This document shows, one piece after another, positions 1 to 24,283 of a DNA stretch of 47,795 bases. The position numbers and the translations under genes were made by a program. Position 1 is the first letter of the stretch, and each line of letters starts with the position of its first letter. The notes beneath the pieces are model-generated. The model made no database searches. It worked only from the letters and a program-made list of their open reading frames with translations, and was not told where the DNA came from. The DNA lies in the IMG/VR virus record IMGVR_UViG_3300034062_005671, positions 1 to 47,795 of that record, one strand, 5' to 3'. This DNA comes from a virus.

Positions 1-2000
1 ACTACCGCTAGTTCCACTTGAACCTGATGTACCATCCGAACCGCTAGTTCCACTTGAACCTGATGTACCGTCTGAACCGCTTGTTCCTGAAGAACCACTT
101 GTACCATCACTACCGCTTGTTCCTGAGCTACCTGAAGTTCCTGAAGAACCTGAAGTACCATCCGAACCACTAGTTCCACTTGAACCTGAAGTACCATCGC
201 TACCGCTAGTACCTGATGAACCTGAAGTACCATCCGAACCACTAGTTCCTGATGAACCACTTGTACCATCTGAACCTGAAGTTCCTGAGCTACCTGAAGT
301 TCCATCACTACCACTAGTTCCTGAAGAACCTGAAGTACCATCCGAACCACTAGTTCCACTTGAACCTGAAGTACCATCCGAACCACTAGTTCCTGATGAA
401 CCACTTGTACCATCGCTACCGCTAGTGCCTGATGTTCCTGAGCTACCTGATGTACCATCACTTCCACTAGTTCCTGAAGAACCTGAAGTTCCATCTGAAC
501 CGCTAGTTCCACTTGAACCTGAAGAACCTGAAGAACCTGAAGTTCCATCTGAACCGCTAGTTCCACTTGAACCTGAAGTACCGTCTGAACCGCTAGTTCC
601 TGATGAACCCGATGTACCATCGCTACCGCTAGTTCCTGAAGAACCTGAAGTACCATCACTTCCACTAGTCCCTGATGAACCACTTGTTCCATCGCTACCG
701 CTAGTTCCATCACTTCCACTAGTTCCTGAACTACCTGATGTGCCATCACTTCCACTAGTTCCTGATGAACCTGAAGTACCATCCGAACCGCTTGTCCCTG
801 AAGAACCTGAAGTCCCACTTGAACCGTCAATACCACTAACACCAGATGTTCCACTCGTTCCACTTGAACCTGAAGTTCCATCACTTCCGCTAGTTCCTGA
901 GCTACCTGATGTACCATCACTACCACTTGTTCCTGATGAACCACTTGTACCATCACTACCGCTTGTTCCTGATGAACCCGATGTACCATCACTTCCACTA
1001 GTTCCTGAAGAACCACTTGTACCATCCGAACCGCTTGTTCCACTTGAACCTGATGTACCATCCGAACCTGAAGTTCCTGATGAACCTGAAGTTCCATCAC
1101 TTCCACTAGTTCCTGAAGAACCACTTGTACCATCTGAACCGCTTGTTCCACTTGAACCTGATGTACCATCCGAACCTGAAGTTCCTGATGAACCCGATGT
1201 ACCATCACTTCCACTAGTTCCTGAAGAACCACTTGTACCATCTGAACCGCTTGTCCCTGAAGAACCTGATGTACCATCACTACCACTAGTTCCTGAGCTA
1301 CCTGATGTTCCGTCCGAACCGCTTGTTCCTGAAGAACCTGAAGTCCCACTTGAACCGTCAATACCACTAACACCAGATGTTCCACTCGTTCCACTTGAAC
1401 CTGAAGTTCCATCACTTCCGTTAGTTCCTGAGCTACCTGATGTACCATCACTTCCACTAGTTCCTGAAGAACCTGAAGTTCCATCACTTCCGCTAGTTCC
1501 GCTTGAACCACTTGTACCATCTGAACCTGATGTTCCTGAGCTACCTGATGTACCATCACTTCCACTAGTTCCTGAAGAACCTGAAGTACCATCTGAACCG
1601 CTTGTTCCTGAACTACCTGAAGTACCATCGCTACCACTAGTTCCTGATGAACCTGAAGTACCACTTGAACCATCAATACCACTTACTCCAGAAGTCCCGC
1701 TAGTTCCTGATGAACCTGAAGAACCATCCGTTCCACTAGTTCCTGAAGAGCCCGATGTACCATCCGTTCCACTTGAGCCTGAAGTTCCATCTGTACCACT
1801 AGTTCCTGAAGAACCTGAAGAACCCGATGTACCATCTACACCACTAGTTCCTGAAGAACCTGAAGAACCACTTGAACCATCAATGCCACTTACCCCAGAA
1901 GTTCCACTAGTTCCTGAAGTACCGCTTGAACCATCGATACCACTTACTCCTGAAGTTCCGCTAGTTCCTGATGAACCACTTGAACCTGAAGTTCCACCCG
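1..2000 (-). repeat. Low-complexity Gly-X-Y coding repeat with internal duplications
   Basis: The DNA is built from 9-base units encoding Gly-X-Y triplets, for example variants of cctgaagaa, cctgatgta and ccatcactt on the plus strand. Two higher-order duplications are visible. Bases 782-921 recur at 1313-1452 (offset 531 bases, 59 triplets) with only two mismatches seen, at 796 and 890. A 108-base unit (12 triplets) is tandem from about 986, with copies starting at 986, 1094 and a partial one at 1202. All offsets are multiples of nine, so the collagen register is kept. Confidence 0.9.
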
Positions 2001-2859
2001 TAAATGAAACTGATATATTACCATCACCGTTATCGGTGACTACCGCATCTGAAAATGTTATTCCTGTTACGTTTGTTGCAGTTACTCCTGAAGTCGCATC
2101 ATAAACTGTAAGAGGACTACCTCCTCCACCCGATGTAAATCCTGATACATCAAAAGAACTACCATCACTATTATTTAATGTTAGTATTCCTAAATCACCA
2201 TCATATGTACCACCTGTAATAGTTCCTGTAAATCCTGTAATTGTTACAGTACCACCAGTATTATTATATAAATCTAATTCTTGTGTTCCTGAAAAATAAG
2301 TACCACCTGTAATTTGAATATCAGTACCATAAAATACCCTCCAACGAGCATTTTCTCTTGTCGTACCACTTTGTCCTTCAATGGTTGAACCTGTCCAAGC
2401 ATTGATGAAGTCTCTACCTGCTTGGGAACGGCTGTTAATTGTTGTTGTATATTCTGTCTCTGTTTTCGCAGAATTACCAGTCAAACCTGATAATGCAACC
2501 CATAATGACTCATAATTAGGTATAGTGTATTGATAAACAGTTTCTGTTTCTTGAACGAAAACTTGCATACCTAATCTTCTTCTACCTGAAGATATATTAT
2601 CTGAGTTTAGCGTTAATATATCGGGTGAAAATGCAGTACCAGTTCCTTTGGTGAATGTGATTGGGATTGTATTTCCAGAATTTTGAATTGACCCTGTTAC
2701 ACCGTAAGTTGACCAATTTAAATCGGATAAAGTATACACCTCCATGTACCCACCAGTTGATAACACGGAAAAGTTTGTACCATAAGTTACATTTCTAGCA
2801 ACACTTTCAGTCGTATTATTTTGAACACTAGATATCGGATTTTTATATGGGAATGACAT
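1..2859 (-). CDS. Collagen-like phage fibre protein, C-terminus beyond the window
   Basis: The frame is open from an ATG at 2859 to base 1 (953 codons) with no stop, so the protein continues past the left edge. Residues 1 to about 285 form a non-repetitive head domain beginning MSFPYKNPISS. From about residue 287 on, every third residue is glycine, giving roughly 220 Gly-X-Y triplets in view. The triplets are almost all GTS, GSS, GSD, GVS or GID, with no proline or lysine noticed, which is unusual for a collagen-like sequence. Collagen-like triple helices are known as shafts of phage tail fibres, and the position at the end of the baseplate/fibre block fits that role. The gene starts 24 bases after the stop of the Thr/Pro-rich gene, behind an A-rich leader. 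The receptor-binding tip, if present, would lie outside the window. A specific function is inferred only. Confidence 0.85.
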   Translation of the reverse strand, partial: MSFPYKNPISSVQNNTTESVARNVTYGTNFSVLSTGGYMEVYTLSDLNWSTYGVTGSIQNSGNTIPITFTKGTGTAFSPDILTLNSDNISSGRRRLGMQVFVQETETVYQYTIPNYESLWVALSGLTGNSAKTETEYTTTINSRSQAGRDFINAWTGSTIEGQSGTTRENARWRVFYGTDIQITGGTYFSGTQELDLYNNTGGTVTITGFTGTITGGTYDGDLGILTLNNSDGSSFDVSGFTSGGGGSPLTVYDATSGVTATNVTGITFSDAVVTDNGDGNISVSFTGGTSGSSGSSGTSGTSGVSGIDGSSGTSGTSGTSGVSGIDGSSGSSGSSGTSGVDGTSGSSGSSGTSGTDGTSGSSGTDGTSGSSGTSGTDGSSGSSGTSGTSGVSGIDGSSGTSGSSGTSGSDGTSGSSGTSGSDGTSGSSGTSGSDGTSGSSGTSGSDGTSGSSGTSGSDGTSGSSGTSGSDGTSGSSGTNGSDGTSGSSGTSGTSGVSGIDGSSGTSGSSGTSGSDGTSGSSGTSGSDGTSGSSGTSGSDGTSGSSGTSGSDGTSGSSGTSGSDGTSGSSGTSGSDGTSGSSGTSGSDGTSGSSGTSGSDGTSGSSGTSGSDGTSGSSGTSGSDGTSGSSGTSGSDGTSGSSGTSGSDGTSGSSGTSGSDGTSGSSGTSGTSGVSGIDGSSGTSGSSGTSGSDGTSGSSGTSGSDGTSGSSGTSGSDGTSGSDGTSGSSGTSGSDGTSGSSGTSGSDGTSGSSGTSGSDGTSGSSGTSGSDGTSGSSGSSGSSGTSGSDGTSGSSGTSGSDGTSGSSGTSGTSGSDGTSGSSGTSGSDGTSGSSGTSGSDGTSGSSGTSGSDGTSGSSGTSGSDGTSGSSGTSGSDGTSGSSGTSGSDGTSGSSGTSGSDGTSGSSGTSGSSGTSGSDGTSGSSGTSGSDGTSGSSGTSGSDGTSGSSGTSGS

Positions 2860-2883
2860 CAATTTATATTATTTTTTTTCATT

Positions 2884-4311
2884 TTATGATTTAGTATCTC
2901 CTTTAATGTAAAGTGTTGAGCTTGCTGGTGGTGATGCTGGAACTTCAAGTGCTCCCGCAGTTAACCATAATACTCGATAAGTTCCCGCAGGTATTGCAGC
3001 ATCTGAAGTAACCGTAACATTTACGGTAGATAAAACTGAGTCAGGTATTCCATCTGGTAATACATTACTTGAGCACGCTGCACCGTATCCTGCATCAACG
3101 GTCATATTATTCATAGTACCTCCAACTCCAGCAAGTGGTATCCAAATTGAATAGAAATATTGAATATCAGGGTCAACTTGTGCGGTTGTCACAGCGATTG
3201 TTCCAAATGTGTATTGGTTTTGAGTACATCCATAAGCATCTGTTCCCGAACCAGAAGCTTGTCTGATTGGTCCTGCAAAATTCGTCACAGGAGTAATGAA
3301 TCCATCAACAGGTGTACTCCAACCTGAGAAGTGAACATAAGTATCCAAATCAGGAGAATAGGTTGGTCCTGATGGCGGTGGTCCACCATCATTCCAATAC
3401 CCATACCAACTAGCCCCTTGGTCTAACATATATTGACCTATATTTGCAAGTGATGTACCATCACTTGGTTCAGGGAATAAATAAGCCGAGAACGGTAAGT
3501 TAGTTGGTGTTGGTGTTTGAGTTAATGTTGGAGTATTAGTTTGAGTTGGTGTTTGACTTGTTGTAGGTGTCGGTGTCTCAGTTGCAGTATTCGTAGGTGT
3601 TAAAGTATTCGTAGGTGTTTGAGTTACTGTCGGAGTATTAGTTGGTGTCTCACTTGGTGTTACTGTTGGTGTTGCAGTTTCAGTAGGTGTTTGAGTTGCA
3701 GTTAATGTGGTAGTAGTTGTTGGTGTAAGAGTTGGTGTTTCTGTTGGTGTTGGTGTTTGAGTCGCAGTTTCACTTGGAGTAACCGAAGGAGTTACCGTTG
3801 GTGTTTGAGTTTCAGTAGGTGTTTGAGTTGCGGTTAACGTAGTAGTAGTTGTTGGAGTAAGTGTCGGTGTTTCAGTCGGAGTTTGAGTAGCAGTTAATGT
3901 TGTGGTTGTAGTAGGTGTAAGTGTTGGAGTCTCCGCAGGAGTACCTGTTGGCGTTTGAGATAACGTCGGTGTTGGTGTTGGTGTCGCAGTATTAGTTGAA
4001 GTAATTGTAGGTGTCGGTGTAGCACCCGTCATCGGGTCAGTTTGTGTTGGAGTTGGAGTTAGTGTTGGTGTTGCACTTGGTGTAGGTGTAACACATTCAA
4101 GAGTTATTACAACTCCATTAAGCATTTGGGTTCTTGTTTGTGCCGAATAGTAAAGAACATTGTCAACATAAACATTAAATGGACCTAAAGCATTTGAATT
4201 TGAAGCTAATCTAACTATATAACTAGTACAACCAGTAATCGTCAGTTGTTGTTCGATTTCTGTACCGCATCCAGGAGCTTCGTTTGTAACTGTAATAAGA
4301 TATGTGGACAT
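2884..4311 (-). CDS. Thr/Pro-rich mucin-like virion surface protein
   Basis: The 475-residue product has three parts. Residues 1-73 are a small beta-rich domain with cysteines (segment [14 protein letters not shown], ending in LEC). Residues about 74-275 are a nearly pure Thr/Pro/Ser/Glu linker of TPT, TQTPT and TETPT units in which [20 protein letters not shown] occurs three times. Residues about 276-475 are a globular C-terminal domain with aromatic, Gly and Cys residues. The linker looks like an extended, possibly glycosylated stalk; that is inference from composition. The N-terminal domain resembles the neighbouring 119-residue protein (DVYISDVYG against NVYVDNVLY), suggesting a shared attachment domain. 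The gene leads its own short transcription unit, with a TATTTATTAA motif 13 bases before the ATG. I recognise no enzyme motif; a fibre or adhesin role is likely. Confidence 0.7.
3480..4090 (-). repeat. Thr-Pro coding repeat
   Basis: Degenerate repeat DNA encoding the Thr/Pro-rich linker; on the plus strand it reads as variants of ggtgtttgagtt, ggtgttggtgt and agtaggtgt. Three copies of a unit of about 60 bases encode the block containing [10 protein letters not shown], near 3690-3750, 3820-3880 and 3880-3940. The copies differ at third codon positions, so they are not very recent duplications. Confidence 0.8.
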
Positions 4312-4324
4312 TATATGTTTTTAT

Positions 4325-4334
4325 TTAATAAATA
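4325..4334 (-). promoter_or_regulatory. TATTTATTAA motif before the Thr/Pro-rich gene
   Basis: The minus strand reads GGTATTTATTAA, ending 13 bases before the ATG at 4311, in a 70-base gap. The same core precedes other operon-leading genes in the window. Whether it is a promoter -10 element or part of the translation leader cannot be decided from sequence. Confidence 0.4.
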
Positions 4335-4381
4335 CCACAACAATACTATTTCATTTAAAGGAATTAAAAATATTGGAAAGT

Positions 4382-4741
4382 TTAATCTAACGTAACAACA
4401 CAACTCTCAGGTTGAATTTCGATATTAACAGTACAATTTGACTCTTGAATATCAATATTGACAACACAAGACGCCATTTCAATTGTAATTTGGAAAGTAC
4501 AACCAAATGTACATTGTAAAATTTTAAAAACACTACACCCATTATCGTCCGTTAACGTTAACATGATTTCAGGAGCGGTATTGAATATAGAAGGTATTAC
4601 CGTATTGTATTCAACAATTGGTGGGACAGGTCCAGGGTTAATGGTACCAAGTAAAGTTTGATAGTTACCATACACATCTGAAATGTATACGTCAATAGGG
4701 TATGTTCCCCCCGTTATTTCGGTTATTCTTACTTGTGTCAT
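4382..4741 (-). CDS. Small virion-type protein with four 11-residue Cys beta-repeats
   Basis: I start this gene at the ATG at 4741, giving 119 residues and a classic ATGA overlap with the stop of the SprB-repeat gene (4738-4740). A TTG three codons upstream would also be in frame but is less likely. Residues 1-75 look like a beta-sandwich type domain (ITGGTYPIDVYISDVYG ... LTDDNGC) resembling the N-terminus of the Thr/Pro-rich protein downstream. The C-terminus holds cysteines at 81, 92, 103 and 114, exactly 11 residues apart, each followed by an alternating hydrophobic strand (CTFQITIE, CVVNIDIQ, CTVNIEIQ, CVVTLD). This suggests a small stacked or solenoid beta structure. No known function is recognised. 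The tight overlap implies coupled translation with the adhesin-like gene and a shared structure on the virion. Confidence 0.72.
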   Translation of the reverse strand: MTQVRITEITGGTYPIDVYISDVYGNYQTLLGTINPGPVPPIVEYNTVIPSIFNTAPEIMLTLTDDNGCSVFKILQCTFGCTFQITIEMASCVVNIDIQESNCTVNIEIQPESCVVTLD

Positions 4742-6873
4742 GTCAAACAAATTGTATCATAAACGATTAATAACTCAACAATGATTTCTTGACCATCCAA
4801 ACTATTACTATTTGGATTTGTCTCGATTGTTATTTGATTGTTACCCGCATCTACAGTAATATTCCCAATGCCAGGTATTGTTTGTAATAAACTAACAACC
4901 GTGTCGTAGTATTCATTATCAGTTGGCGCAACAACTAATGAAGTAGTTGTAAAGAAAGTATCACTTGTAGTTAAACCTAACGGATTAACGGAAACGTTCA
5001 CCGTATAAGTCGCAGAAATTAAACTACAACTTGTATTACCCGATGTTAAATCATCAAATCCATCATTTAACATTTGTAATAAACCATATTTTGTTTGAGA
5101 TTGAATATTAAACACTTCTGACCCCATGACATAAGTTTGGTATGACGCATAACTCGCATCACAAGTAATATCCGTAAATCTTTGTAATGAACATCCATTA
5201 CTATCAATAATTGTAACATTATAAGTTCCAGCGGTTAAACCACTGACTTGTATTTCTTGTGGATTGTTTGGAACATTGTCAGACCATATAAATGTGAATG
5301 GAGGTTCCCCTGATGAAATGAATGTTGTAATTGAACCATCAGAACCTGTACCACATGATGTTGTATATAAACTGTAATTTAACGTTGGACTTTGATTAAC
5401 GTAAACTTGAAGTGTTTGAGTACAACCTGTATTATCTGTAACAGTAATAGTATGTTGTCCCGATGAAACATTATTAAATGTTACTGATGATAAAGCAGTA
5501 TCTAAAACATTTACCAAACCATCTAATGAATAGTCATAAGGAGGTTCTCCCCCACTTGTTTTTGTTACCGTAATTAATCCATTATTTTGGTTACATGTTG
5601 TACCTGTTGTTTGTGTTGAAATTGTAAATGTATTTGTCGCGAATAAAGTTACTTCATCCATGTAATAACAACCTGAGGCGTCTGTAACAGAAACAGTGTA
5701 AGTACCCGAATATAAATTAGGGAATAATTGGTTTGTTTGGGCGTTGGCAATATTTAAAACATTACCATCAGGATATATTAAAGTATATGTATATGGTGTT
5801 GAGCCCCCATTTACCGCAACACTAATAGTTCCACCACTACTTGAACAAGTTGAACCTTGAGTGTTGATAGTAACTGAAGTTATTCCGTTAGGAGTTGCCA
5901 ATGTTGTCCCTTGAGTGAATGTACATAAACCAGCATCAGTAACCATAATACTAATGTCACCTGGAGATAAACCTGATATTGTCCATGAAGTACCATATTG
6001 TACCGACACTTGTCCCGTGGAAGCGGAATAATAGTAAGGTGCAGTTCCTCCCGTTATTTGTATAGTTAGAGCACCGTCATTTGACAAACAAGATGGTTGT
6101 GTCACTGTAAAGGTTCCAAAACCAAGGACTGGCACATCATTTATTGTTGCTGTTTGAGTGTTAACACAACCATAAGCATCTATAACGTCAACAGAATAAA
6201 CACCAGAAGTTAGTCCTGTCACTGTAGAACCTGTAGCACTTGTACTCCACTGATATGTGAATGGTCCAGTACCTGTCAATCCTGTAATCATGATTTTACC
6301 TATAGGACTATCACCACAAGCAGAATTTGGTACCGCATATAAACCATAATTTAATACTGGAGAAGATTCAATAATGAAATTCGATGTCTGAGCAGTACAC
6401 CCACCCAAATCTTCAACCGTCATATAATATGTTCCAGCGGTCAAACTACCAAATACAATAGTTTGTTGATTGGTAATCGCAGATTGTGAAAATACCCCGT
6501 CCCCGTGATATAGATAAAAATTAGTAGATGAATAATCGGATGTTGAACTACCTGTAACAAATCCGTTATTAAGATTACATGTCGTACTTTGTACTCCGAG
6601 AATACTAGCACATACCCCGCTCGATACTGGTATGTTAATGTAAAATTCGGCGTTCGTAGGTAAAGAGCTATCATTAACTCTAACCGCATAAGTATCACCA
6701 CTTAAACCCGTTTTAACTGCTGGCGCTACCGTAACAACGTCAGGTGACAATACAGGGTCAATCCATTGTACTGTGTACGGAGGAGTCCCACCCGTCAACA
6801 GTAAACTTATTGAACCTAAATTACTATTTGAACAGTCTCCAGTTACCGATATGTTATAATTAAAAACTGACAT
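4738..6873 (-). CDS. SprB-repeat adhesin-like virion protein
   Basis: The 711-residue product is mostly seven tandem repeats of about 75 residues, each with the pattern C-x(3)-NG or a variant, then GGxxPYxY, then GLxxGxYxVxVxDxxGC. This matches the SprB repeat, named from the flavobacterial gliding adhesin SprB and related to PKD/Ig-like folds. Examples are GGTAPYYYSAS and GLTSGVYSVDVIDAYGC. Most repeats carry one Cys near each end, so an intra-repeat disulfide is possible. Residues about 570-711 form a different C-terminal domain resembling the C-terminus of the 994-residue protein next door. There is no signal peptide, as expected for a protein assembled onto virions in the cytoplasm. The ATG overlaps the upstream stop by one base (TAATG). 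A role in host-surface adhesion is inferred from family and position. Confidence 0.8.
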   Translation of the reverse strand: MSVFNYNISVTGDCSNSNLGSISLLLTGGTPPYTVQWIDPVLSPDVVTVAPAVKTGLSGDTYAVRVNDSSLPTNAEFYINIPVSSGVCASILGVQSTTCNLNNGFVTGSSTSDYSSTNFYLYHGDGVFSQSAITNQQTIVFGSLTAGTYYMTVEDLGGCTAQTSNFIIESSPVLNYGLYAVPNSACGDSPIGKIMITGLTGTGPFTYQWSTSATGSTVTGLTSGVYSVDVIDAYGCVNTQTATINDVPVLGFGTFTVTQPSCLSNDGALTIQITGGTAPYYYSASTGQVSVQYGTSWTISGLSPGDISIMVTDAGLCTFTQGTTLATPNGITSVTINTQGSTCSSSGGTISVAVNGGSTPYTYTLIYPDGNVLNIANAQTNQLFPNLYSGTYTVSVTDASGCYYMDEVTLFATNTFTISTQTTGTTCNQNNGLITVTKTSGGEPPYDYSLDGLVNVLDTALSSVTFNNVSSGQHTITVTDNTGCTQTLQVYVNQSPTLNYSLYTTSCGTGSDGSITTFISSGEPPFTFIWSDNVPNNPQEIQVSGLTAGTYNVTIIDSNGCSLQRFTDITCDASYASYQTYVMGSEVFNIQSQTKYGLLQMLNDGFDDLTSGNTSCSLISATYTVNVSVNPLGLTTSDTFFTTTSLVVAPTDNEYYDTVVSLLQTIPGIGNITVDAGNNQITIETNPNSNSLDGQEIIVELLIVYDTICLT

Positions 6874-9857
6874 TATATACTACAATCTATATTAATATTT
6901 ATTCCAACATTCAAAACAACAGTTTCTTGAAGATTTTGTGTGATACAATTTAAGTTGGTAATTGTTAGTTCATTACCATTTAAGAAATAAGTATATCCGT
7001 AATCATATAACATTGGTAGATAATCAATCAAGGCATTTCTCCATTCAGTATTTGTAGGTACATCATTATATCCGTAACCACTATAGAATGTCTCTTGTAT
7101 TAATATATCACCACCAATTCGTAAGTCAACAAACCATTCAGTCTGAACCGAATTTTGACTACATTGATTAAGTGTTAACCCACTTGATGATAACATGTTA
7201 TTAATTCTATTTGCAAGAATACTATCAAAATTAGAAACATTTATATCACCATTTAACCAAGGATATATATTGAAATCGACATACTCGGTGCTACAAGTGT
7301 AATCAAATATGTTTGAGATAATAAAACAAGGGTCAACAGGTACTGGTACAAATTGACATCCCCTTTGTCGTCTATAAACAAATTTTTGTTTGTGAAGAAC
7401 AGAGTTTTCTAATCTAACACCACCATTCCAAATGGTAGTTGCAGGAACCATTTGCTCAATCAATTTAGTCCAATAAGGACCGATACCATTAACATAGTCA
7501 ATAAGTTTTTGGTACGTATATTTGTTATTTGGTAAACCAACAGTTTGTTCTGATTCAATATATTTCCACCATATAGATTGTAATGTAGGATATCCACCAG
7601 TCTTACCGTCAGAAATGTATTGTCTGTTTCTCGTATTAATCATATTCTGCCAAAAAGTTTGGGAGAATTCAAAGAATGTTTTCTTTTTAGGTTTTGGGTC
7701 AACATAAGTCCAATCCACACCACCTGGTACAGGATATCCAACAGTTAGACCTGATTCAGGTATTGGGTAATCATATTTTCTTGACTCATCCCAAACATCA
7801 TAAACCAAACCTTGGCCAGGATTAAGGAATATGTCTACGTTTTTAACGTTAAGAACTAATTTTTCATTATCGACAAAATAATATGCGTTATAATCTCCTT
7901 GAGTCGAAATTCTAACTCTGTCGTCATCAGACAACCATGACTTATTATTATCGACTACTTTTTGTAATTTAAATCCTTCAGTCATGTAAGGGAAATCTCT
8001 AAACCTGTTCAAATAAGTTTGACCATATGTAAACGGTTGTAATTGAGTTTGAATATTAAAGTTTTGTCCTGTATATACATTACCTGTAATTGTAACTGCA
8101 TCAGGACTTCTATGTTCTGGTGTTGTTTCGTACCATCCCGCACCTATTTGAAAAAAGTATGTTTCAGTATTAACAGGAGCCTTTGGATATCCAAATATAT
8201 CAATAGGGTAATCATCTAATGTAATATTCACATCCTGATAAGTTGAGTTGGTAGTAAATGCGGAATAGATATTACCTTGAATACTATATGTTTGGCCTGG
8301 TGCGTAAGTTGGAGTTTGTTGAACGTAAGTTCCACCTGATATCTGAGCCCATTGTGTGTAGAATTGGTCTAAATTAATTCTTTGGTCCGCTAAATAAATG
8401 TGTTCATTATATTCAATTAATGAATCAGGTGCGCCAATTAATCTTAATAAAAATTCAACAGACCTTCTCGTACCTTTTGATTTAAATAGGTAAGACGCAT
8501 TTAAAATTAAATTTCTATAATAAGCATAATTTAATTCTGTTGGCGTAAGAGCTCTTGCGTAACCAGGATATGTTGGTGTTGCGGTATTACCAAAAACAGA
8601 TGATAAGAAATCTTCATTTGTTATTGGTGAAAAATTTGAAGACCATCCTAATGTTTGTGATAAATTCACCAATAATTGTGACGGTATATCATTTGAAGGG
8701 TTGTAGTTTACTGAATTCATGTAAGCCAAACCTTCAATGAAAGTTTTAATTTGGTCAAAACTTCTTCCATAGATTTGAAATATTTTTTCAACCTTTCTAC
8801 CTAATGTGTCAAATTCTTTTAATGAATCAGAAACTAAAAACCTAGATATTAAGTTTGTCTTAAATGAGTCAAGATTAACAGCAATGGCTTGGATTTGTTC
8901 CAAATAAGAGTCAAATAAGAATGAACTAATATCTAAATTCCACACACCATCTTTCGGCCATGTAACTTGTTGATAATCTGTAAAGGTCTGTCCATATTCA
9001 TTTTGTTGTGGCACTTGGAATACCGCGGTATATTCAGGCCTAACCAATCTATTAACTAAAAATTTCTCAACCTCATCAAAGTCTTCTTGAAATGTCTTAT
9101 CAACAATATAATCATTTGGTCTTATTTGAAATTCTTCTTGGGTCGTGGTTGCAGTCAACCCAAAAGGTGAACCTGAAACATAGAATACAATTTCACCTGA
9201 GGATAATGTCTGTGATGGTGTAAATGATATAACTTTATAAATGTTATCATTAATACTAACACAGTAATCTAAATAGGTATTACTAAGATTTCTATATTTT
9301 GAAGTTAGAATTTCACTTGCAGCCAAATTAGTTGCGGCACTGACAGAGTAATCAATATCAAATGGATTTTTAATTCTATCAACATTAACTTTAAAGTACG
9401 TCTCGTCAGCTTGAACATCATACACAATATCAAAAGCCGTGTTACCCGTAACGTAATCGTTGTTACTAAATTGAATGTCTAATGACGCTGGAAAATAATT
9501 AATGATTTTAGTAATTGAAACTCTGAATCTTTCAGACAATGAACCGTACATTGAAAAGTTAAGAACTTGTGTGATGTCAAAGTTTGGATAAACTCTAAAT
9601 TGAGTTGCCAATATTCTTCGACTCTGTTCAAGACTGTCGATGTTCATTGCATCTAACGTCATTGGTTCTGAGAACGCTCCGACATTAAAAGTTCTATTAA
9701 CTTTTTCTGTTACTCCCGTTGTAAACTCAAAATTACCTTGCGTAAGTCCTCCACCCTCAACAGTTTGTAATCCTACAATGTTGTCGGAAAAAGTACCCGC
9801 ACCGTTTCCAGGTCTTGGTGGGTAAAAGAACTTAGTATTTTTTGTGTTTACCGCCAT
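6873..9857 (-). CDS. Large baseplate protein, gpI/gp7-like candidate
   Basis: This 994-residue protein follows the gp25 and gp6 homologues in the same block. In many contractile tails a gpI or gp7-type wedge protein follows gp6/gpJ. The middle segment, about residues 440-500, includes LFKSKGTRRSVEFLLRLIGAP, which resembles the lysine-glycine-threonine plus helix pattern of tail protein I. That similarity is by eye and is not proof. The N-terminus (MAVNTKNTKFFYPPRPGNG) and much of the rest are aromatic-rich beta sequence typical of baseplate proteins. The last 150 residues or so contain paired cysteines and end in NIDCSI, resembling the C-terminal domain of the SprB-repeat protein. It starts by TAATG coupling with the upstream gene and ends by TAATG coupling with the downstream one. 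The exact wedge role is unproven. Confidence 0.55.
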   Translation of the reverse strand: MAVNTKNTKFFYPPRPGNGAGTFSDNIVGLQTVEGGGLTQGNFEFTTGVTEKVNRTFNVGAFSEPMTLDAMNIDSLEQSRRILATQFRVYPNFDITQVLNFSMYGSLSERFRVSITKIINYFPASLDIQFSNNDYVTGNTAFDIVYDVQADETYFKVNVDRIKNPFDIDYSVSAATNLAASEILTSKYRNLSNTYLDYCVSINDNIYKVISFTPSQTLSSGEIVFYVSGSPFGLTATTTQEEFQIRPNDYIVDKTFQEDFDEVEKFLVNRLVRPEYTAVFQVPQQNEYGQTFTDYQQVTWPKDGVWNLDISSFLFDSYLEQIQAIAVNLDSFKTNLISRFLVSDSLKEFDTLGRKVEKIFQIYGRSFDQIKTFIEGLAYMNSVNYNPSNDIPSQLLVNLSQTLGWSSNFSPITNEDFLSSVFGNTATPTYPGYARALTPTELNYAYYRNLILNASYLFKSKGTRRSVEFLLRLIGAPDSLIEYNEHIYLADQRINLDQFYTQWAQISGGTYVQQTPTYAPGQTYSIQGNIYSAFTTNSTYQDVNITLDDYPIDIFGYPKAPVNTETYFFQIGAGWYETTPEHRSPDAVTITGNVYTGQNFNIQTQLQPFTYGQTYLNRFRDFPYMTEGFKLQKVVDNNKSWLSDDDRVRISTQGDYNAYYFVDNEKLVLNVKNVDIFLNPGQGLVYDVWDESRKYDYPIPESGLTVGYPVPGGVDWTYVDPKPKKKTFFEFSQTFWQNMINTRNRQYISDGKTGGYPTLQSIWWKYIESEQTVGLPNNKYTYQKLIDYVNGIGPYWTKLIEQMVPATTIWNGGVRLENSVLHKQKFVYRRQRGCQFVPVPVDPCFIISNIFDYTCSTEYVDFNIYPWLNGDINVSNFDSILANRINNMLSSSGLTLNQCSQNSVQTEWFVDLRIGGDILIQETFYSGYGYNDVPTNTEWRNALIDYLPMLYDYGYTYFLNGNELTITNLNCITQNLQETVVLNVGININIDCSI

Positions 9858-10765
9858 TAAGTTGTTATGTTTGTAAAGTTTTTACTGAAATCAATATTAT
9901 TACCTCTACTCTGTCTAACCTCATAAAGTAATGCGTTAAATTGGTCTCTAATTTCATATAAGTTGTATTGTCTGTATATGTTATTTTGAGGGTCATAGAT
10001 TGTGTAGATACCATCATCGATTGATTTGGTTTGATTACCGTAAAGAGCAATTGCAAGAGATGATACATCGTACTCAACCATTTCTATTTCCAAAGTAATT
10101 GGATTAAAGAATGTGTTTGATATAATAATGTTTTGATTTGGTTGTCCAATAAACGGAGTTGAATTTGGATTGTTTGTTGGCGATGAAGATGGTGATAGTG
10201 TTAAGAAAATCAAATTAGAATTTCCTTCAACATATCTATATCTAATACTTTTTTGTGTTGTATTTGTTTCATTCGTAACTACAGGTTCGCAAAAGAACGA
10301 TGAGGTTACAACTCTAAAGAAATTTGGAATCTTTGAACCATCAGGATTTAAGTATTCAATTCTAAAACCAACTAAACCTTGAGGTACAAATTTGTTTTGA
10401 TATTGTGTAGGTACATTTGTAATGTCAATTACAATTCCTTTTACGTTTGGTAATGCATTTAAGACACCACAGTCAGTAATTAGTGTTCTAATTTGTGCAG
10501 GTCTTAAATAAAGTGTGTAAATGCCAAGAGCATTGAACTGTTCTGCAGGTAATGTTAAATTATATAATCCACCCAATACCTCAACACCAGCATTTCCACC
10601 TGTTTGAGTATTGTTGAAATAAGGCTTAAGAATTGTTTGTGCATCAAGTTGTGTAAGGATAAAATTATCCGTAACATCCCTTGATGGAGTATAATTCATA
10701 ATAATCTGAACGTCTTCTGGTGAGACATCACTTGGTCGTATTGTGCCGTATGAACCTATTGCCAT
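9857..10765 (-). CDS. Unrecognised baseplate-operon protein, 302 residues
   Basis: No family is recognised. The protein has no signal peptide or membrane segment. It starts MAIGSYGTIRPSDVSPEDV, is rich in Asn, Thr and Tyr, has a Ser/Pro/Asn-rich stretch near residues 190-205 (LSPSSSPTNNPNSTPFIG), and ends with a helix-prone segment around YEIRDQFNALLYEVRQSRG. The composition is typical of a phage structural protein. It is the first gene after a 22-base gap that holds a CTATTTATAA motif 12 bases before the ATG. Its stop overlaps the start of the 994-residue gene as TAATG, so the two are probably made in linked amounts. It may be a wedge accessory or fibre connector; that is inference from position only. 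Confidence 0.55.
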   Translation of the reverse strand: MAIGSYGTIRPSDVSPEDVQIIMNYTPSRDVTDNFILTQLDAQTILKPYFNNTQTGGNAGVEVLGGLYNLTLPAEQFNALGIYTLYLRPAQIRTLITDCGVLNALPNVKGIVIDITNVPTQYQNKFVPQGLVGFRIEYLNPDGSKIPNFFRVVTSSFFCEPVVTNETNTTQKSIRYRYVEGNSNLIFLTLSPSSSPTNNPNSTPFIGQPNQNIIISNTFFNPITLEIEMVEYDVSSLAIALYGNQTKSIDDGIYTIYDPQNNIYRQYNLYEIRDQFNALLYEVRQSRGNNIDFSKNFTNITT

Positions 10766-10777
10766 ATCTTTTTATCT

Positions 10778-10787
10778 TATAAATAGT
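10778..10787 (-). promoter_or_regulatory. CTATTTATAA motif before the 302-residue gene
   Basis: The minus strand reads CTATTTATAA between the stop of the PKD-domain gene (10788) and the ATG at 10765, with 12 bases between motif and ATG. It is one of the repeated TATTTAT motifs in the intergenic gaps. Confidence 0.4.
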
Positions 10788-11897
10788 TTAGTTCTTTTTT
10801 TCAACGTTAAAAAATCCATATCCGTAGTTAATCATGTCACCTAAATTGTCAACTTCTCCCATTCTTTGGATTCTTTCATATGCAGAGTTCTTACCTCTTT
10901 CAACAAAAACATCTGTTTGGATTTGTGGTTGGTCAACTACTTTGATTAAACTTTCTTCTTTTGTTATTGGTCTTGATGTCAAATTATTTTCAGTAAATCC
11001 CGATGATTGTTCAAAGAAGATTGTTGTTCCGTCTATGTAATCATAGTAATCAACAGAATTAACTGTATAGGCAGTGAAGGTTGTTGCAGTATTGGTTATT
11101 GCACCCCATATCTGACCATTCTTAATAACAGGAACCCCAACTTGAAATTTGTTTGGTCCATACATTGATAATTCATTCAACTTAGATTTAGTTAGTCCTG
11201 AAACCGTGTATGGAACCGTTGTAAAATTATTTGATGTTTGAGCAGATACCACGTTAACCGCATCACCTGAAAATATGTAGTCATAACTAATTGGCGTTTC
11301 GAACCAATTACCCCCCGCAGGAATAAAAAACGCCTCACCATTTGGATTATTTATTACAACATCCGAATAAGGGGTTGTTATCGTTTTTTGAACCTTTGTA
11401 ACCCCCCAAGGATTTGTTTGTTTTAATGTGATTATATATTTGGCATTTGCAACAGGGTATGTATGTGAAATAGAATTTGGTGTGTAAGTAGTTATTATTT
11501 GGTCAGGCGTACCATCACCCCAATTTAAAATATAATTTGATAATTCTAAAAACTTTTGGAAATCACTTGATGTGTTATATATGTTATAGACATACGGATT
11601 GGTAGTCGTGGAAGAAAATATAAAATTAGCCACAACGTCTTTCTGTAATACCGCACCATCAAAAGGACTATAGTATCCAAAATCTACTGCAGTCTGTCTA
11701 AACAATATTGGAATCGTCACTCCTGTTAATAAAGAACTACCGTCGGTACCCCCACTCAAAACTTGAGTCATTGCCGAATAAACTCCAGTCGTTTCACCCG
11801 TATAACCAGGTCCAACGTTTTGACCTTGCATATCAACAGTAAAAATATCACCCTTAATTGTTTCGGGGGAAATTATAATATTATAAAAATCTTCCAT
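10788..11897 (-). CDS. PKD-domain baseplate-operon protein
   Basis: The 369-residue product contains a PKD-like domain at about residues 80-175. The diagnostic WGDGT is at 126-130, HTY at 145-147, and a closing strand follows (YIITLKQTNPWGVTKVQKTIT). PKD domains are Ig-like extracellular modules common in Bacteroidetes surface proteins and seen in phage structural proteins. The flanking regions are not recognised; the N-terminus (MEDFYNIIISPETIKGDIF) and C-terminus (MINYGYGFFNVEKKN) are probably attachment segments. The start codon overlaps the upstream stop as TAATG. A role in the baseplate periphery or in contact with host surface glycans or proteins is plausible but inferred. Confidence 0.65.
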   Translation of the reverse strand: MEDFYNIIISPETIKGDIFTVDMQGQNVGPGYTGETTGVYSAMTQVLSGGTDGSSLLTGVTIPILFRQTAVDFGYYSPFDGAVLQKDVVANFIFSSTTTNPYVYNIYNTSSDFQKFLELSNYILNWGDGTPDQIITTYTPNSISHTYPVANAKYIITLKQTNPWGVTKVQKTITTPYSDVVINNPNGEAFFIPAGGNWFETPISYDYIFSGDAVNVVSAQTSNNFTTVPYTVSGLTKSKLNELSMYGPNKFQVGVPVIKNGQIWGAITNTATTFTAYTVNSVDYYDYIDGTTIFFEQSSGFTENNLTSRPITKEESLIKVVDQPQIQTDVFVERGKNSAYERIQRMGEVDNLGDMINYGYGFFNVEKKN

Positions 11898-12718
11898 TAT
11901 GGGTTAACATATTCATACCATTTTATGGGTTGTAGAGTTCCCGCTCTTTGACCATCATTCAAATAGATGGTTTGATTTGGATTCATATTGAATACTTGAT
12001 ATTCTTGTTTCTCATAATCAAGATGAACCTTATAATAGAAATACTGTGAATTATCAAAAACATATTTATTACCCGATAAAGATGATTGAGGCATATTCAT
12101 CATTTTAACAAAAAATCCACGCTCAGCATCATAAAACTTAGCGGTCATATAAAATGTATCAATATCCAAGAAATTTCTTTTCTTTAACCAATAAATAAAG
12201 AAACCTTCTTTATCCCCCACATAATCCAAAACAAATGAAGGTTTTTTGATTGTTACATCAGTGGTTTGCATAATAGCATTCATCTTTAAACCTTGTTGGG
12301 TAGGTATAATTAATGTAATGTAGTTTTTCTGTCTCTTCTCATCAAAATTATCGTACAAGTCAAGTTTGAAAAAAGAATTTGAAAAATTGTTAGTATAGTA
12401 GTAAATTTCTTGTGTTGAGAAACCTTCAGCTCTATAGTCGGTAATCCAATTAGATTCTACATCTAATGAACTTCCTGACCAAAAGTAAAACTCGTATTTA
12501 ATATCCGTTGGTTCAGATGTTGTACCCGTCAATGGTGAGTGAGCAAATCTGCTAACCTCAAAATCTCGACCAACACCAATTACTTCAGTAATAATTTCGG
12601 TCTCAAACGCCTCGATACTTTGGTCTTGACCTAAGTCATCCCAAGTAAATTGTACGGGAATTGTAAGTTGGTTGTCCACAAATCCGTTGTTTCGAATTGT
12701 AACTTTATTCACATTCAT
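11897..12718 (-). CDS. Unrecognised virion-type protein, 273 residues
   Basis: No known family is recognised. The product is beta-rich with many aromatic residues (FYFWSG, QEIYYYTNNFSNSFFKLD, YFYYKVHLDYEKQEYQVF) and lacks membrane or signal segments. The ATG at 12718 lies inside the end of the preceding gene (14-base overlap), and its stop overlaps the start of the PKD-domain gene by one base. It is therefore locked in a coupled string with other baseplate-block genes. A structural role is likely from context; nothing more specific can be supported. Confidence 0.55.
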   Translation of the reverse strand: MNVNKVTIRNNGFVDNQLTIPVQFTWDDLGQDQSIEAFETEIITEVIGVGRDFEVSRFAHSPLTGTTSEPTDIKYEFYFWSGSSLDVESNWITDYRAEGFSTQEIYYYTNNFSNSFFKLDLYDNFDEKRQKNYITLIIPTQQGLKMNAIMQTTDVTIKKPSFVLDYVGDKEGFFIYWLKKRNFLDIDTFYMTAKFYDAERGFFVKMMNMPQSSLSGNKYVFDNSQYFYYKVHLDYEKQEYQVFNMNPNQTIYLNDGQRAGTLQPIKWYEYVNP

Positions 12719-14393
12719 CTATCAATGGTTTAATTGGGTATGCCACACCAAGTGTGTTATAGTTTATACCTTCAGGAATTAACCTGAAAATTAAATCTTT
12801 GAACGGATATTGAGCACTATTCAAAAATGGGTAATCAACACCTCTTTCAAGATTATCTTTAAATCCATAACTATATAAATCTCTCCATCTGAATTGTTGG
12901 TCGGATGCCGAGTAATAAGAATATGAAGGGATGTTTTCAACCTGTCCAACATTAGCGGTCTCTACGTAGTCAGAAAAAACTCTAATCGTCATTGAAGTGT
13001 GGGGTTTATAATAGAAACCTGGACTATTTGTGTCGTATAAACTTGTAGTTTGAAAGACATTCTGATTGTACTTTATCTTTTGATAGTATGGTGAAATAAC
13101 TCTTTCCAATTGGTCATAGTCATTCCATTCACAAAAATCACCGTCAATAACGTCATCTTTTTTAAGGTCTTGATTGTAGTAGAAAGTTTTAGTAGCACCA
13201 TTAGTTAAAGTATAGTTAGATGTTGGAATGTTAGTATCTGATTGATTATTTAATAAATCCCACCATGGACTAACAGGAGATGTTAAATTAAACTCCCACC
13301 CTTGTTTTAACCCAATACCACTATTTGGTTGATTAAAGTAACCTGTATATCCCTTATTAATTATAGTTAAAAACAATTCACTAACAGGTCTTTTCTGATT
13401 GTCCAACACGTTTAATAAATTCAAATCTTTAGCAACCGTAACATTATATGAATTACTACTTGTCTTTTGTGAAATCCTTGAAACTTGGTTTGGGGTAATT
13501 GAACTGTATTCAAACTTTTTTTCTTCACCGAAAACATTTTTTTCAAATCCGTTTTTAGTCATTATAGTCTCATCAACATCAGTTAATATCTTATGTTGTC
13601 TTATATAATATTTTGATTTTGTTTCAGTTAGATTTTCAGGATTGATTACTCTTTTGAAGGTACCTGTAACACTATTAGCAAATGTAGTTCCTGTGTATCC
13701 AAAATTATAAATGTTAAAAATATATTCACCACTATCAAACTCACCCGTCCCTAAAGAATACACTTGAAATAAATTCACTTGATTATAAAAGAATGATAAT
13801 TCAACATATTCACCAACTGTTAATCCATGTGGTGCGATACATTGAAAACTAATCACGTTAGCCCCATTTTGAGTTCGATTAAGTATTGAAAATGGTATCC
13901 CGTCAGATGCAACCCAATTAAATGAACTATTATTTAAATCATATGATAGTGGTTTACTATAATCATTACTATAAACATAACTTATATAGTAAGTCCAATT
14001 GTAGGTGTAGGCACTTTTAGATTTATAGTCTATGTGTTGGTCAGTAATGTTTGGTCTATAAAAATCAAATTCGTAATACTGAGGAAATCCTTTCCAAATA
14101 CCATTTACAGTAGATTGTATTGGGTCAACATAATATAAAGTATCCCTAAATGGTACGTATTGAGTAGTACCAGTATATGTATTGGCATATAAGTAAGTCA
14201 CTTTAAATGTCGGTCTAAATACAGTACACGCTTGTCTCTCATCGTTATATACTTGAGCCAAGTTAATACTTTGACTTCGGTCATACTCAACAATAAGTTG
14301 TGATTGACTTTCTAAAGTAACCGAAATTTCTTGGTCAACAAAAGGTGCTGACTTGTATTTTTGACTACTAGGTATGATGGTATATTTATTCAC
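12705..14393 (-). CDS. Unrecognised virion-type protein, 562 residues, GTG start
   Basis: The reading frame starts at a GTG (14393) that overlaps the end of the 1657-residue gene by 8 bases; no ATG lies close downstream in frame, so GTG is the probable start. The product is rich in Tyr, Asn, Ser and Thr, begins MNKYTIIPSSQKYKSAPF, and has repeated beta-like segments with VTGTF and FGYTGTTF turns. No signal peptide, membrane segment or enzyme motif is seen. It lies between the membrane-segment protein and other unrecognised structural genes and overlaps both neighbours, so it is probably a stoichiometric baseplate or fibre component. The function is unknown. Confidence 0.55.
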   Translation of the reverse strand: MNKYTIIPSSQKYKSAPFVDQEISVTLESQSQLIVEYDRSQSINLAQVYNDERQACTVFRPTFKVTYLYANTYTGTTQYVPFRDTLYYVDPIQSTVNGIWKGFPQYYEFDFYRPNITDQHIDYKSKSAYTYNWTYYISYVYSNDYSKPLSYDLNNSSFNWVASDGIPFSILNRTQNGANVISFQCIAPHGLTVGEYVELSFFYNQVNLFQVYSLGTGEFDSGEYIFNIYNFGYTGTTFANSVTGTFKRVINPENLTETKSKYYIRQHKILTDVDETIMTKNGFEKNVFGEEKKFEYSSITPNQVSRISQKTSSNSYNVTVAKDLNLLNVLDNQKRPVSELFLTIINKGYTGYFNQPNSGIGLKQGWEFNLTSPVSPWWDLLNNQSDTNIPTSNYTLTNGATKTFYYNQDLKKDDVIDGDFCEWNDYDQLERVISPYYQKIKYNQNVFQTTSLYDTNSPGFYYKPHTSMTIRVFSDYVETANVGQVENIPSYSYYSASDQQFRWRDLYSYGFKDNLERGVDYPFLNSAQYPFKDLIFRLIPEGINYNTLGVAYPIKPLIDECE

Positions 14394-19359: not shown

Positions 19360-19371
19360 TAATCTCTTTAG

Positions 19372-19382
19372 TTAATAAATAG
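19372..19382 (-). promoter_or_regulatory. CTATTTATTAA motif before the 1657-residue gene
   Basis: The minus strand reads CTATTTATTAA 12 bases before the ATG at 19359, in the 92-base gap after the gp6-like gene. An identical 11-mer precedes the 1680-residue gene at 44098-44108. The rest of this gap (to 19451) is plain AT-rich sequence with no hairpin that I can see. Confidence 0.45.
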
Positions 19383-19451
19383 TTTATGTGGTATTTTTAA
19401 AGTTTACGCACACAATTAAATAATAACTTAAAGAAAAAATAAATAAACTTG

Positions 19452-21290: not shown

Positions 21291-21295
21291 TTATA

Positions 21296-21766
21296 TTAAA
21301 TATTGATAATCACAAAATCACTCTGACCAAATGTAGAACCATTGGTCGAATAATCTAATCTTATTTTTGCGGTATATTCTGACGTACCCTTACCAGGGAA
21401 TCGGTATACGGATGATTCACTTGTACCTAAAAGATTTTGACCTGTTGCAATGTCAACTTCTTCTTGGGCGTCCGCAGGAGTAATACTTAAACTATTAACC
21501 AATAAATTTGGCATGAATGTTTCAATAGCATCTCTTATGTCAGATTCAATGGCATTAAATGTAAGTCCGTCAAATGGTTCAAATAGAAACTCATAAAGTC
21601 TTGTTCCAAACTGAGGTAAGAAATATCGAGAACCTTTTCTTGTTAATAATAAATGTATTAAGTCGGCCTTAATCTCCTGAGATTCTAATTCAGTAAGTTC
21701 TAAGTAGTCACCTCGTCTAGAATCCCTAAAGGGAAAATTTATACCATAAGTAATTCCATCTGCCAT
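21296..21766 (-). CDS. gp25: Baseplate wedge protein, gp25 (GPW/gp25 family)
   Basis: The 156-residue product carries the gp25-family core: an N-terminal helix, ESQEIKADLIHLLLTRKGSR, then FLPQFGTRLYEFLFEP and a following helix IESDIRDAIETFMPN. gp25 joins wedges to the first sheath ring and is conserved across contractile systems, including the type VI secretion protein TssE. T4 gp25 is 132 residues; this one has a somewhat longer C-terminal beta segment. It sits first in the wedge block, 5 bases before the gp6-like gene, after the terminator that closes the nucleotide reductase gene. Confidence 0.92.
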   Translation of the reverse strand: MADGITYGINFPFRDSRRGDYLELTELESQEIKADLIHLLLTRKGSRYFLPQFGTRLYEFLFEPFDGLTFNAIESDIRDAIETFMPNLLVNSLSITPADAQEEVDIATGQNLLGTSESSVYRFPGKGTSEYTAKIRLDYSTNGSTFGQSDFVIINI

Positions 21767-21767
21767 A

Positions 21768-21779
21768 ACTATAAATATA
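21768..21779 (-). promoter_or_regulatory. TATATTTATAGT motif abutting gp25
   Basis: The minus strand reads TATATTTATAGT immediately before the ATG at 21766. The core matches the motif before the tail tube gene. It is too close to the ATG to be a -10 element for this start, which argues for caution about the promoter reading. Confidence 0.25.
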
Positions 21780-21810
21780 ATACTATCTATTTTTCTTTAA
21801 ATAGATTAAA

Positions 21811-21840
21811 AATGAAAAATCCCGAATGAATCGGGATTTT
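21811..21840 (-). terminator. Intrinsic terminator after nrdA
   Basis: A perfect 10-base stem (21816-21825 with 21831-21840, core TCCCGA/TCGGGA) and 5-base loop start 4 bases after the nrdA stop. On the minus strand it is followed by TTTTTCATTTTT. The A-tract on the other side would let it work in both directions. It separates the DNA metabolism block from the baseplate wedge block. Confidence 0.9.
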
Positions 21841-21844
21841 CAAA

Positions 21845-24271: not shown

Positions 24272-24283
24272 ATTGTTTTAATG

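Follow-up and report, generated by a model that had tools for sequence, protein, structure and literature searches.

In T4, as in modular tail fibres, the receptor-binding tip (that of gp37) varies and is exchanged on an anchor that is conserved. A passage of PMC7345892 states that gp37 determines adsorption specificity, and another that phage receptors in Flavobacterium columnare likely belong to the gliding machinery. In EPclA of an E. coli O157:H7 prophage, a trimeric triple helix was shown according to the part of PMC3368898 that describes it, and a table in PMC8968730 gives bacterial collagen-like proteins 19% Pro at X. Mycobacteriophage capsids, e.g., that of Che8, are described as glycosylated in an excerpt of PMC11256854.

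The locus described here lies in a 47,795-nucleotide viral contig (the window), and it resembles several known systems while differing from each. As with T4 gp37, a variable, exchanged and putatively receptor-binding part sits on a conserved anchor; here, however, exchange appears to run through a Thr/Pro stalk and to carry the anchor of the next fibre along. Like EPclA and EPclB, one product is a phage fibre-type protein with a Gly-X-Y shaft between globular domains, whereas the collagen domain of EPclA has 111 residues (PMC3368898, in part) and that found here has 1,428 without Pro, with another anchor and tip. A Ser/Thr-dense scaffold, with glycosyltransferase genes nearby in some relatives, is shared with the BclA collagen-like spore glycoproteins (PMC8968730, in part) and the Che8 capsids (PMC11256854, in part); in contrast to both, glycosylation here is putative, and some relatives lack such genes next to the cassette. 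The same kind of Ig-like array occurs in the SprB repeat family and in GhpA, the grappling hook protein of Aureispira. However, the protein in the window has no terminal type IX sorting domain, shares a domain with a phage protein, and is 711 aa long vs. over 5,000 in GhpA (by the numbering of the GhpA entry). Finally, gp101, gp103 and gp104 of the isolate Flavobacterium phage immuto (NC_055915), annotated as tail fibre or tail spike, are likewise long low-complexity fibres in a row downstream of a T4-like baseplate block, whereas HMMs of the SprB-type protein, the Thr/Pro protein and the collagen-like anchor gave nothing significant among 13 immuto genes. We consider it probable that the four genes of this locus encode baseplate-anchored virion adsorption fibres of a T4-like phage that probably infects Bacteroidota.

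Layout of the locus and its recurrence in relatives

Four neighbouring genes, all on the minus strand, close the baseplate block (Table 1). As originally predicted, the first encodes SprB-type repeats, the second a Cys repeat of 11 residues, the third a stalk of Thr/Pro and the fourth a shaft of Gly-X-Y triplets. Linkage by overlaps or short gaps was also borne out. The junction of the 994-aa and 711-aa genes is TAATG (1-nt overlap), that of the 711-aa gene and gene 2 is ATGA (4-nt overlap), and gaps of 70 and 24 nt follow before the Thr/Pro and collagen-like genes, respectively. For gene 2, the ATG is the likelier start, since it overlaps the stop codon of the SprB gene as ATGA and is also where several homologous ORFs start.

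Table 1. Coordinates of the genes and their parts in the window
Feature	Position	Strand	Basis
994-aa baseplate-block protein, directly upstream of the SprB gene	6873..9857	minus	HMM; C-terminal domain shared with SprB protein
C-terminal domain of 994-aa protein	about 6876-7340	minus	related to SprB C-terminal domain
SprB-type protein, 711 aa	4738..6873	minus	Pfam SprB; own-repeat HMM
SprB repeats	about 5191-6792	minus	
SprB C-terminal domain	about 4741-5196	minus	
Gene 2, 119 aa	4382..4741 (start in ORF list, TTG 4750)	minus	Cys repeat; homologues
Cys repeat tail of gene 2	about 4385-4525	minus	
Thr/Pro protein, 475 aa	2884..4311	minus	anchor, stalk, head
Thr/Pro anchor	about 4090-4311	minus	
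Thr/Pro stalk	about 3499-4089	minus	
Thr/Pro head	about 2887-3498	minus	
Collagen-like fibre gene, cut by contig end	1..2859	minus	Pfam Collagen; anchor and shaft
Collagen-like anchor	about 1996-2859	minus	
Gly-X-Y shaft	from about 1995 down	minus	

The window holds PHROG baseplate wedge genes, which we take to be gp6 and gp25, together with hub and tail tube genes, and the capsid protein gp23 was found at about 7e-63 in two of 16 records (the relatives G002 and G009). T4-type baseplate and tail tube genes along with gp23 identify a T4-like myovirus. A second contig of the same phage encodes 711-aa and 994-aa proteins 100% identical to those of the window, and viral contigs of up to 295 kb yielded relatives in 250 stretches for one gene and 192 for another.

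The same order recurs in related uncultured phages. The SprB gene follows the 994-aa gene in 78 of the 78 loci in view, gene 2 comes next in 66/67, the Thr/Pro gene in 57/62 and the collagen-like gene in 50/54, in a set that includes many near-duplicates and was retrieved by way of the 994-aa gene. The four misses at the collagen-like step still hold a Gly-X-Y gene, and two of the five Thr/Pro misses (L100 and L102) hold a partly matching gene. Homologues are thus not confined to unrelated contexts, and the position behind the baseplate genes, conserved in relatives, is that expected of tail or adsorption fibres. Among 80 deeper relatives (L121-L200), the SprB C-terminal domain occurs in 33 loci; in 27 of these, a gene-2-type domain coincides with it or follows it, and a 994-type gene precedes it in eight and, on the other strand, in L183. 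The L200 locus includes the gene preceding SprB, which did not register as 994-type.

A tblastn search of 50,697 phage records returned one metagenomic record for the SprB protein (31% identity) and, at the limits used, no match for the 994-aa protein, gene 2, the Thr/Pro protein or the collagen-like anchor. The four-gene combination, suspected to be new, was not found in the isolate records in that search, and the titles and abstract openings listed from the openly searchable literature include none on phage proteins of the SprB type.

Domain architecture of the encoded proteins

The 711-aa protein matches Pfam SprB (PF13573) at E 4.2e-27 with five significant stretches. An HMM built from five of the protein's own repeats recovered all five and two untrained ones, residues 28-70 at 3.9e-5 and 133-159 at 4.7e-6 (E-values for one sequence), in agreement with the seven repeats first counted. 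The repeats are predicted to be Ig-like, and the best Foldseek match of the array is GhpA (E 5.2e-19; VIA Z 11.8, rmsd 16.9, 367 aligned). It is conceivable but quite improbable that the array contacts the host's own SprB-type moving adhesins and uses them as receptor; the repeats and the GhpA-like fold would fit such targeting of the gliding machinery, as would the Flavobacterium columnare receptors described in a passage of PMC7345892, but the Ig-like fold is general and fibronectin fragments score alike.

A type IX sorting domain was not found at the C-terminus, the only TIGR04183 match being internal (residues 112-158) and, at 20.6 bits, below the 23-bit cut-off; nor was a signal-like N-terminus seen by eye. 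Both argue against display on, or secretion from, the infected cell, e.g., as a surface coat or for superinfection exclusion. The architectures are indeed those of bacterial surface proteins, but the overlaps of 1 and 4 nt with the 994-aa gene and gene 2, as well as the Peptidase_S74 domain in a relative (see below), also point to virion parts, and we give display or secretion very little credence. Thus, the term host-like in the original prediction is half right: the array most resembles a bacterial protein, but it lacks the sorting signal and the genes are conserved across the phage family.

The C-terminal domains of the SprB-type and 994-aa proteins are related. Besides the SprB repeat pairs, three of 36 profile pairs compared by hhalign had E under 0.005: gene 2 vs. 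the Thr/Pro head (0.0012, only 31 columns), the SprB repeat vs. the collagen-like anchor (0.0027, only 15 columns), and the 994 vs. SprB C-termini (0.0035, probability 9%, 110 columns, a weak match). The last pair was followed further and gained HMM support. An HMM of the 994 C-terminus matched SprB proteins outside its training set (L169 at 8e-6, L185 at 1e-5, L157 at 2e-4), while the reverse search with the SprB domain found 994 proteins only at 0.08. A scan of neighbouring proteins, cut into 69 windows, placed the 994 C-terminus first (0.0039 over 31 columns; next, 0.022). Given this relationship of the two C-termini, the SprB protein probably docks at the 994-aa protein. A single anchor domain common to all four genes was also considered and is unsupported by the 36 profile pairs.

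The 994 HMM further reached a 1,336-aa protein of Mel-JY01 (4.6e-9) and immuto gp109 (5e-4) in a search of 25 proteins, comprising annotated genes at full sensitivity; both matched proteins lie near gp6 in their phages. Among solved structures, the best sequence match to the 994-aa protein had E 0.19.

The only PHROG match of the SprB protein is a Hoc-like capsid decoration (4.5e-8), which raises the alternative of a Hoc-like role, in which the Ig-like array and the Thr/Pro or Gly-X-Y fibres would cover the head or the tail and attach to particles, mucus or polysaccharide gels rather than serve as receptor-binding tail fibres. Hoc-type proteins likewise carry Ig domains, and the Ser/Thr-dense stalks would suit such a coat. 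However, the genes stand behind the baseplate block and the SprB protein, in which a Hoc-type decoration would need a capsid-binding domain, shares its C-terminal domain with the 994-aa protein, and we regard decoration as unlikely.

Gene 2 encodes a small N-terminal domain and a tail of 11-residue Cys repeats, whose length differs among relatives. The repeat is no chance pattern: the tail, a stretch picked by eye, has 12 matches at period 11, whereas none of 10,000 shuffles reached as many for any period between 5 and 19. Gene 2 matched nothing in Pfam, PHROG or NCBIfam. By eye, the core resembles a single SprB repeat, but four deep gene-2-type proteins had no Pfam match and hhalign against SprB segments gave E 0.006 to 0.035, so that a SprB repeat is at most a possible reading of it.

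The Thr/Pro protein consists of an anchor, a stalk and a head. The mucin-like stalk of the prediction is real in composition, with 96 Thr and 39 Pro among 196 residues and a Ser+Thr content of 52.6%. The head is predicted mostly above pLDDT 90. Among solved structures nothing was significant (PDB Foldseek, best E 0.15), and its best VIA row had Z 4.2, with a warning from the tool that the head was barely tested; a good structural match is the uncultured phage protein A0A6J5L892 (2.2e-14). The negatives count against no particular family.

The collagen-like gene runs off the contig end, and many contigs break off in such genes; Pfam Collagen covers its shaft at E 3.2e-95. The other contig of the same phage (L116) holds the whole ORF of 2,041 aa, with the anchor, an unbroken 1,428-residue Gly-X-Y run (476 triplets), a knob and a C-terminal tip, followed by a second collagen-like gene. 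The run follows the pattern Gly-[S/T]-[S/D] without a single Pro. Thus, the predicted collagen shaft holds as to its long Gly-X-Y periodicity, to which the name collagen is owed, but not as to the Pro that known collagens have at X/Y. If the rise of collagen holds, the shaft would be about 0.4 micrometres long here; one relative encodes a collagen-like protein of at least 3,685 aa. The shaft matches PHROG tail fibre and NCBIfam SclB models, which may reflect composition only, and a curated model would label the fibre "LPXTG-anchored collagen-like adhesin Scl2/SclB" (605.9 bits, cut-off 325). Knob families are common to fibres with unrelated anchors. Peptidase_S74, the endosialidase chaperone typical of tail fibres, ends the fourth gene of one of 16 records (G013) and is absent in G001, which is the same phage as the window.

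Variation and apparent exchange of the outer parts

From 48 loci with all parts, 29 representatives were compared. L063 dropped out, the start of its head having gone unrecognised, the head alignment excluded six loci outside the length limits, and the A2 set omitted L060 and L064, whose C-termini carry long extensions. Median pairwise identity was 79.6% for the 994-aa protein, 61.4% for SprB, 64.9% for the Thr/Pro anchor, 56.9% for the collagen-like anchor and 33.6% for the head, the most variable part of the Thr/Pro protein. With relatedness accounted for, head identity correlated with that of the collagen-like anchor (partial r 0.66, equalled in 0/1000 permutations; 0.63-0.74 on leaving one out; 0.66 with 23 stricter representatives), although linkage alone could explain part of this. 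Once the collagen-like anchor was taken into account, the head showed no such relation to the anchor of its own protein (r -0.01); the collagen-like anchor was also linked with SprB (r 0.31). L093 and L096 share 99% identity across 994, SprB and gene 2 but only 48% across the head, and in three pairs DNA similarity breaks off within the stalk. Related phages thus appear to exchange outer fibre parts through the repetitive stalk, and since the head tracks the anchor of the next gene rather than its own and the breakpoints fall in the stalk, head and collagen-like fibre would move as a block.

Exchange of the head fits selection by host range and again speaks against decoration. Together with the gene order and the shared SprB/994 domain, it gives good support to the composite adsorption apparatus originally proposed for the end of the baseplate/fibre block, which is also backed by Peptidase_S74 in one relative and by the tail fibre and tail spike genes of immuto.

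Probable host, possible glycosylation and a proposed model of adsorption

The host is probably a member of the Bacteroidota. Upstream of all 26 genes examined, none of six Shine-Dalgarno motifs occurs and 49% of bases are A, in a small test that excluded the two bases adjoining each start; this fits Bacteroidota. The Bacteroidota promoter motif provided no evidence (seven matches vs. 3.88 expected; 11 of 100 shuffles had as many). Alignment of the 994-aa protein against genome contigs confirmed no relative among 586 pattern matches, and gp23 of G002 found seven loci in mixed bins, namely Paludibacteraceae twice, Bacteroidales, Prochlorococcus, Mycoplasmatota, Acidobacteria and one unnamed.

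The Thr/Pro stalk may carry dense O-glycans, as mucin-like glycoproteins do. Glycosyltransferase genes adjoin the cassette in some relatives only. Eighteen sugar-gene queries matched 12 of the 80 L121-L200 loci, namely two query records (L121 and L122) and ten loci that form three lineages (L128; L144/L145; L146-L152), and one of the 80 L031-L110 loci, itself a query record. The glycosyltransferase matches of the near relative G002, at 77-96 kb, are not close to the cassette.

For the adsorption fibres favoured here, we propose that the SprB protein would use the shared domain to dock on the 994-aa protein or next to it and would project as an Ig-domain arm, which gene 2 may cap or link. Receptor binding would fall to the Thr/Pro head together with the tip of the collagen-like fibre. 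Length, flexibility and a site of recombination would come from the low-complexity stalk and perhaps from the Gly-X-Y shaft, by which the receptor-binding parts would be exchangeable while the anchors stay unchanged. A bolder version, which we offer tentatively, is that the locus forms a receptor-switching organ in which stalk hinges swap head and collagen-like fibre as a block, and that the proline-free shaft represents a phage fibre shaft of a new kind, which O-glycans from phage-encoded glycosyltransferases might hold together. The shaft raises the question of whether Gly-X-Y without proline can form a fibre. The locus links an uncultured group of T4-like phages with a defined set of attachment proteins that can be exchanged, and, if this is true, host range could be read from head type in metagenomes.

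Conservation and modularity of the cassette

The four adhesion-type genes described in the original prediction were all found on the minus strand of the window in the stated order, and its seven SprB-type repeats and 11-residue repeat were both upheld on re-analysis. The window, a virus record of 47,795 bases from IMG/VR, also encodes relatives of tail tube, hub and baseplate wedge proteins, together with ribonucleotide reductase, helicase and a UvsX-like recombinase. Its fourth, collagen-like gene is truncated by the record end; the whole gene is supplied by L116, a locus on another contig of the same phage (two proteins 100% identical to the window's), as a 2,041-aa ORF whose Gly-X-Y run continues uninterrupted for 1,428 residues and which also has a knob and a tip.

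The same gene order, which the original prediction proposed to look for in metagenomic Bacteroidetes phages, was sought with the 994-aa protein encoded directly upstream of the SprB gene, which gave 254 matching stretches, 250 of them encoding a relative. In the best 80 of these 250, with downstream order scored only as far as each contig extends, SprB was found in 78/78, gene 2 in 66/67, the Thr/Pro gene in 57/62 and the collagen-like gene in 50/54; many loci are near-identical, so these counts are not independent events. L092 and L101 pass from gene 2 directly to a Gly-X-Y gene that bears another anchor, L061 has a different gene behind SprB, and L100 and L102 carry genes that are Thr/Pro-type in part. 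In L098, long NTASG repeat proteins replace the collagen-like gene, and the first of them matches a beta-roll family (LbR_Ice_bind 1.4e-16, Pfam); by eye, the repeats of tail spikes gp101 and gp103 of Flavobacterium phage immuto are similar. The Thr/Pro stalk sits on gene 2 in L056 and L069 and on the SprB gene in L060 and L062–L066, with a further domain in some, so the stalk is portable.

A 742-aa protein encoded beyond the cassette in one relative was also used as query (192 relatives, 80 loci retained). The SprB C-terminal domain occurs in 33/80 of these loci, with a gene-2-type domain at or behind it in 27/33; a 994-type gene lies ahead of it in 8, L183 has one on the opposite strand, and most remaining loci of the 33 begin inside the SprB gene. 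L200, in which the gene visible ahead of SprB was not recognised as 994-type, has the continuous order SprB, a Thr/Pro gene whose head is related, a short gene bearing the collagen-like anchor, two additional Thr/Pro genes and the 742-type gene.

Coordinates of further observations in the window and related loci
Locus	Position	Strand	Feature
Window	21845-30289		Ribonucleotide reductase, helicase, exonuclease, recombinase and single-strand binding genes, flanked on both sides by tail/baseplate gene blocks
L116 (window's phage)	2-2620	minus	Second collagen-like gene behind the first, with another anchor, also off the contig end
L098 (relative)	15484-20472; 21115-22977		NTASG repeat proteins
L060; L064 (relatives)	12985-16245; 12985-16383		SprB protein lengthened by a Thr/Pro stalk and a further domain; the latter is propeller-like by eye and has no Pfam match
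L117 (relative)	6505-12671	minus	Four additional Thr/Pro-stalk genes in series, adjoining the 742-aa gene
L201 (183-kb relative G013)	1169-7432		Glycosyltransferase genes and others of sugar type in series behind the fibre gene, then unannotated genes

Probable exchange through the Thr/Pro stalk

In the AlphaFold2 model of the Thr/Pro protein, the N-terminal beta domain has block pLDDT values of 54-85, the stalk is of low confidence and most of the head exceeds 90; a PDB comparison that barely tested the head gave no significant match to it. Across 29 representatives the head varies more than any other part, with a median identity of 33.6% vs. 64.9% for its own anchor. Head identity tracks that of the collagen-like anchor in the gene behind (partial r 0.66 with 994, SprB and the head's own anchor accounted for; 0/1000 permutations), in agreement with leave-one-out and stricter representative selection, and is uncorrelated with its own anchor given the collagen-like anchor (r -0.01; 542/1000). 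The raw correlation of head with SprB is small (0.22; 1/1000), and that of the collagen-like anchor with SprB, given the head, is 0.31. In L093/L096, L104/L109 and L036/L037, a long DNA match stops within the stalk and, among the matches listed, similarity returns only in the next gene; in the converse pair, L083/L096, the head is 90% common and SprB 67%. Stalk lengths are unequal in L109/L110. From the correlation and the DNA matches ending in the stalk, we conclude that head and collagen-like anchor appear to be exchanged as one block, with breakpoints within the stalk. The two travel together because of linkage, and a functional pairing between them is possible.

Putative anchoring domain, SprB array and collagen-like shaft

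The SprB and 994-aa proteins appear to share a homologous C-terminal domain, at about 560-711 in the former and about 840-994 in the latter. When built from the 994 domain, an HMM matches SprB proteins that come from deeper relatives and were not used to train it; these matches lie near the C-termini (8e-6, 1e-5 and 2e-4). The reverse HMM gave 0.08. Direct comparison by hhalign was weaker, with E 0.0035 and probability 9% for a 110-column alignment, two short, unrelated-looking profile pairs reaching lower E; against 69 windows, the SprB domain ranked the 994 C-terminal window best. In its AlphaFold2 model, the SprB domain consists of a helix, two strands, a second helix and three strands, in that order. 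A search of 25 proteins with the HMM of the 994-aa family gave matches to near-gp6 proteins in Microcystis phage Mel-JY01 (4.6e-9) and in immuto (5e-4). Through the shared domain, the SprB protein may dock on or beside the 994-aa protein.

The SprB protein was modelled as a string of beta domains (mean pLDDT 83.7, pTM 0.36), and the closest solved structure to its array is GhpA of Aureispira (E 5.2e-19; VIA Z 11.8, rmsd 16.9, 367 aligned). Fibronectin fragments score similarly, indicating a general fold. No type IX sorting domain was found at the C-terminus.

In the 476 collagen-like triplets, X is Ser (238), Thr (225) or other (13) and Y is Ser (379), Asp (95) or other (2), with no Pro; of the 29,901 residues in such runs across the family's L031–L110 genes (duplicates counted), Pro makes up less than 0.05%. 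This near-absence, compared with 19% Pro at X tabulated for bacterial collagen-like proteins in one review (PMC8968730), means that a stable triple helix is not assured. At the 2.9 Å rise quoted for EPclA in PMC3368898, the 1,428-residue run would span about 0.41 µm. The collagen-like protein of relative G007 has at least 3,685 aa. Knob families K0, K1, K3 and K6 are borne by fibres of differing anchor families (66 distinct proteins, some being pieces of one gene), and Peptidase_S74 ends the collagen-like gene of one relative (1/16 records).

Possible glycosylation, likely host and probable role

Glycosyltransferase, methyltransferase and sugar-type genes lie behind the collagen-like gene in relatives G004, G007 and G013, and homologues occur near the cassette in 10 more L121–L200 loci of three lineages (query records excluded); none of the 18 query types is near it in L200. 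Such families also occur elsewhere in these genomes, PF00534 being found in 13/16 records (9 above cut-off), and glycosyltransferase-type matches in G002 are distant from the cassette. That the stalks may be O-glycosylated is a testable idea.

The nearest matches to gp23 of G002, at 42-43%, come from Mel-JY01, immuto and a metagenomic record, with Rhodothermus phage RM378 next (36%), and no Shine-Dalgarno motif was found upstream of 26 genes. A Bacteroidota host is likely, with Mel-JY01 and mixed bins leaving alternatives. A contig titled Prochlorococcus sp. AG-409-L21 (L208) carries a gp23 relative of 59% identity, through contamination or infection.

The predicted four-gene cassette is thus real, conserved and modular, and its role is probably adsorption. 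It would be a variant of tail-fibre systems, set apart by a shared end domain, stalk-borne exchange and a proline-free shaft.
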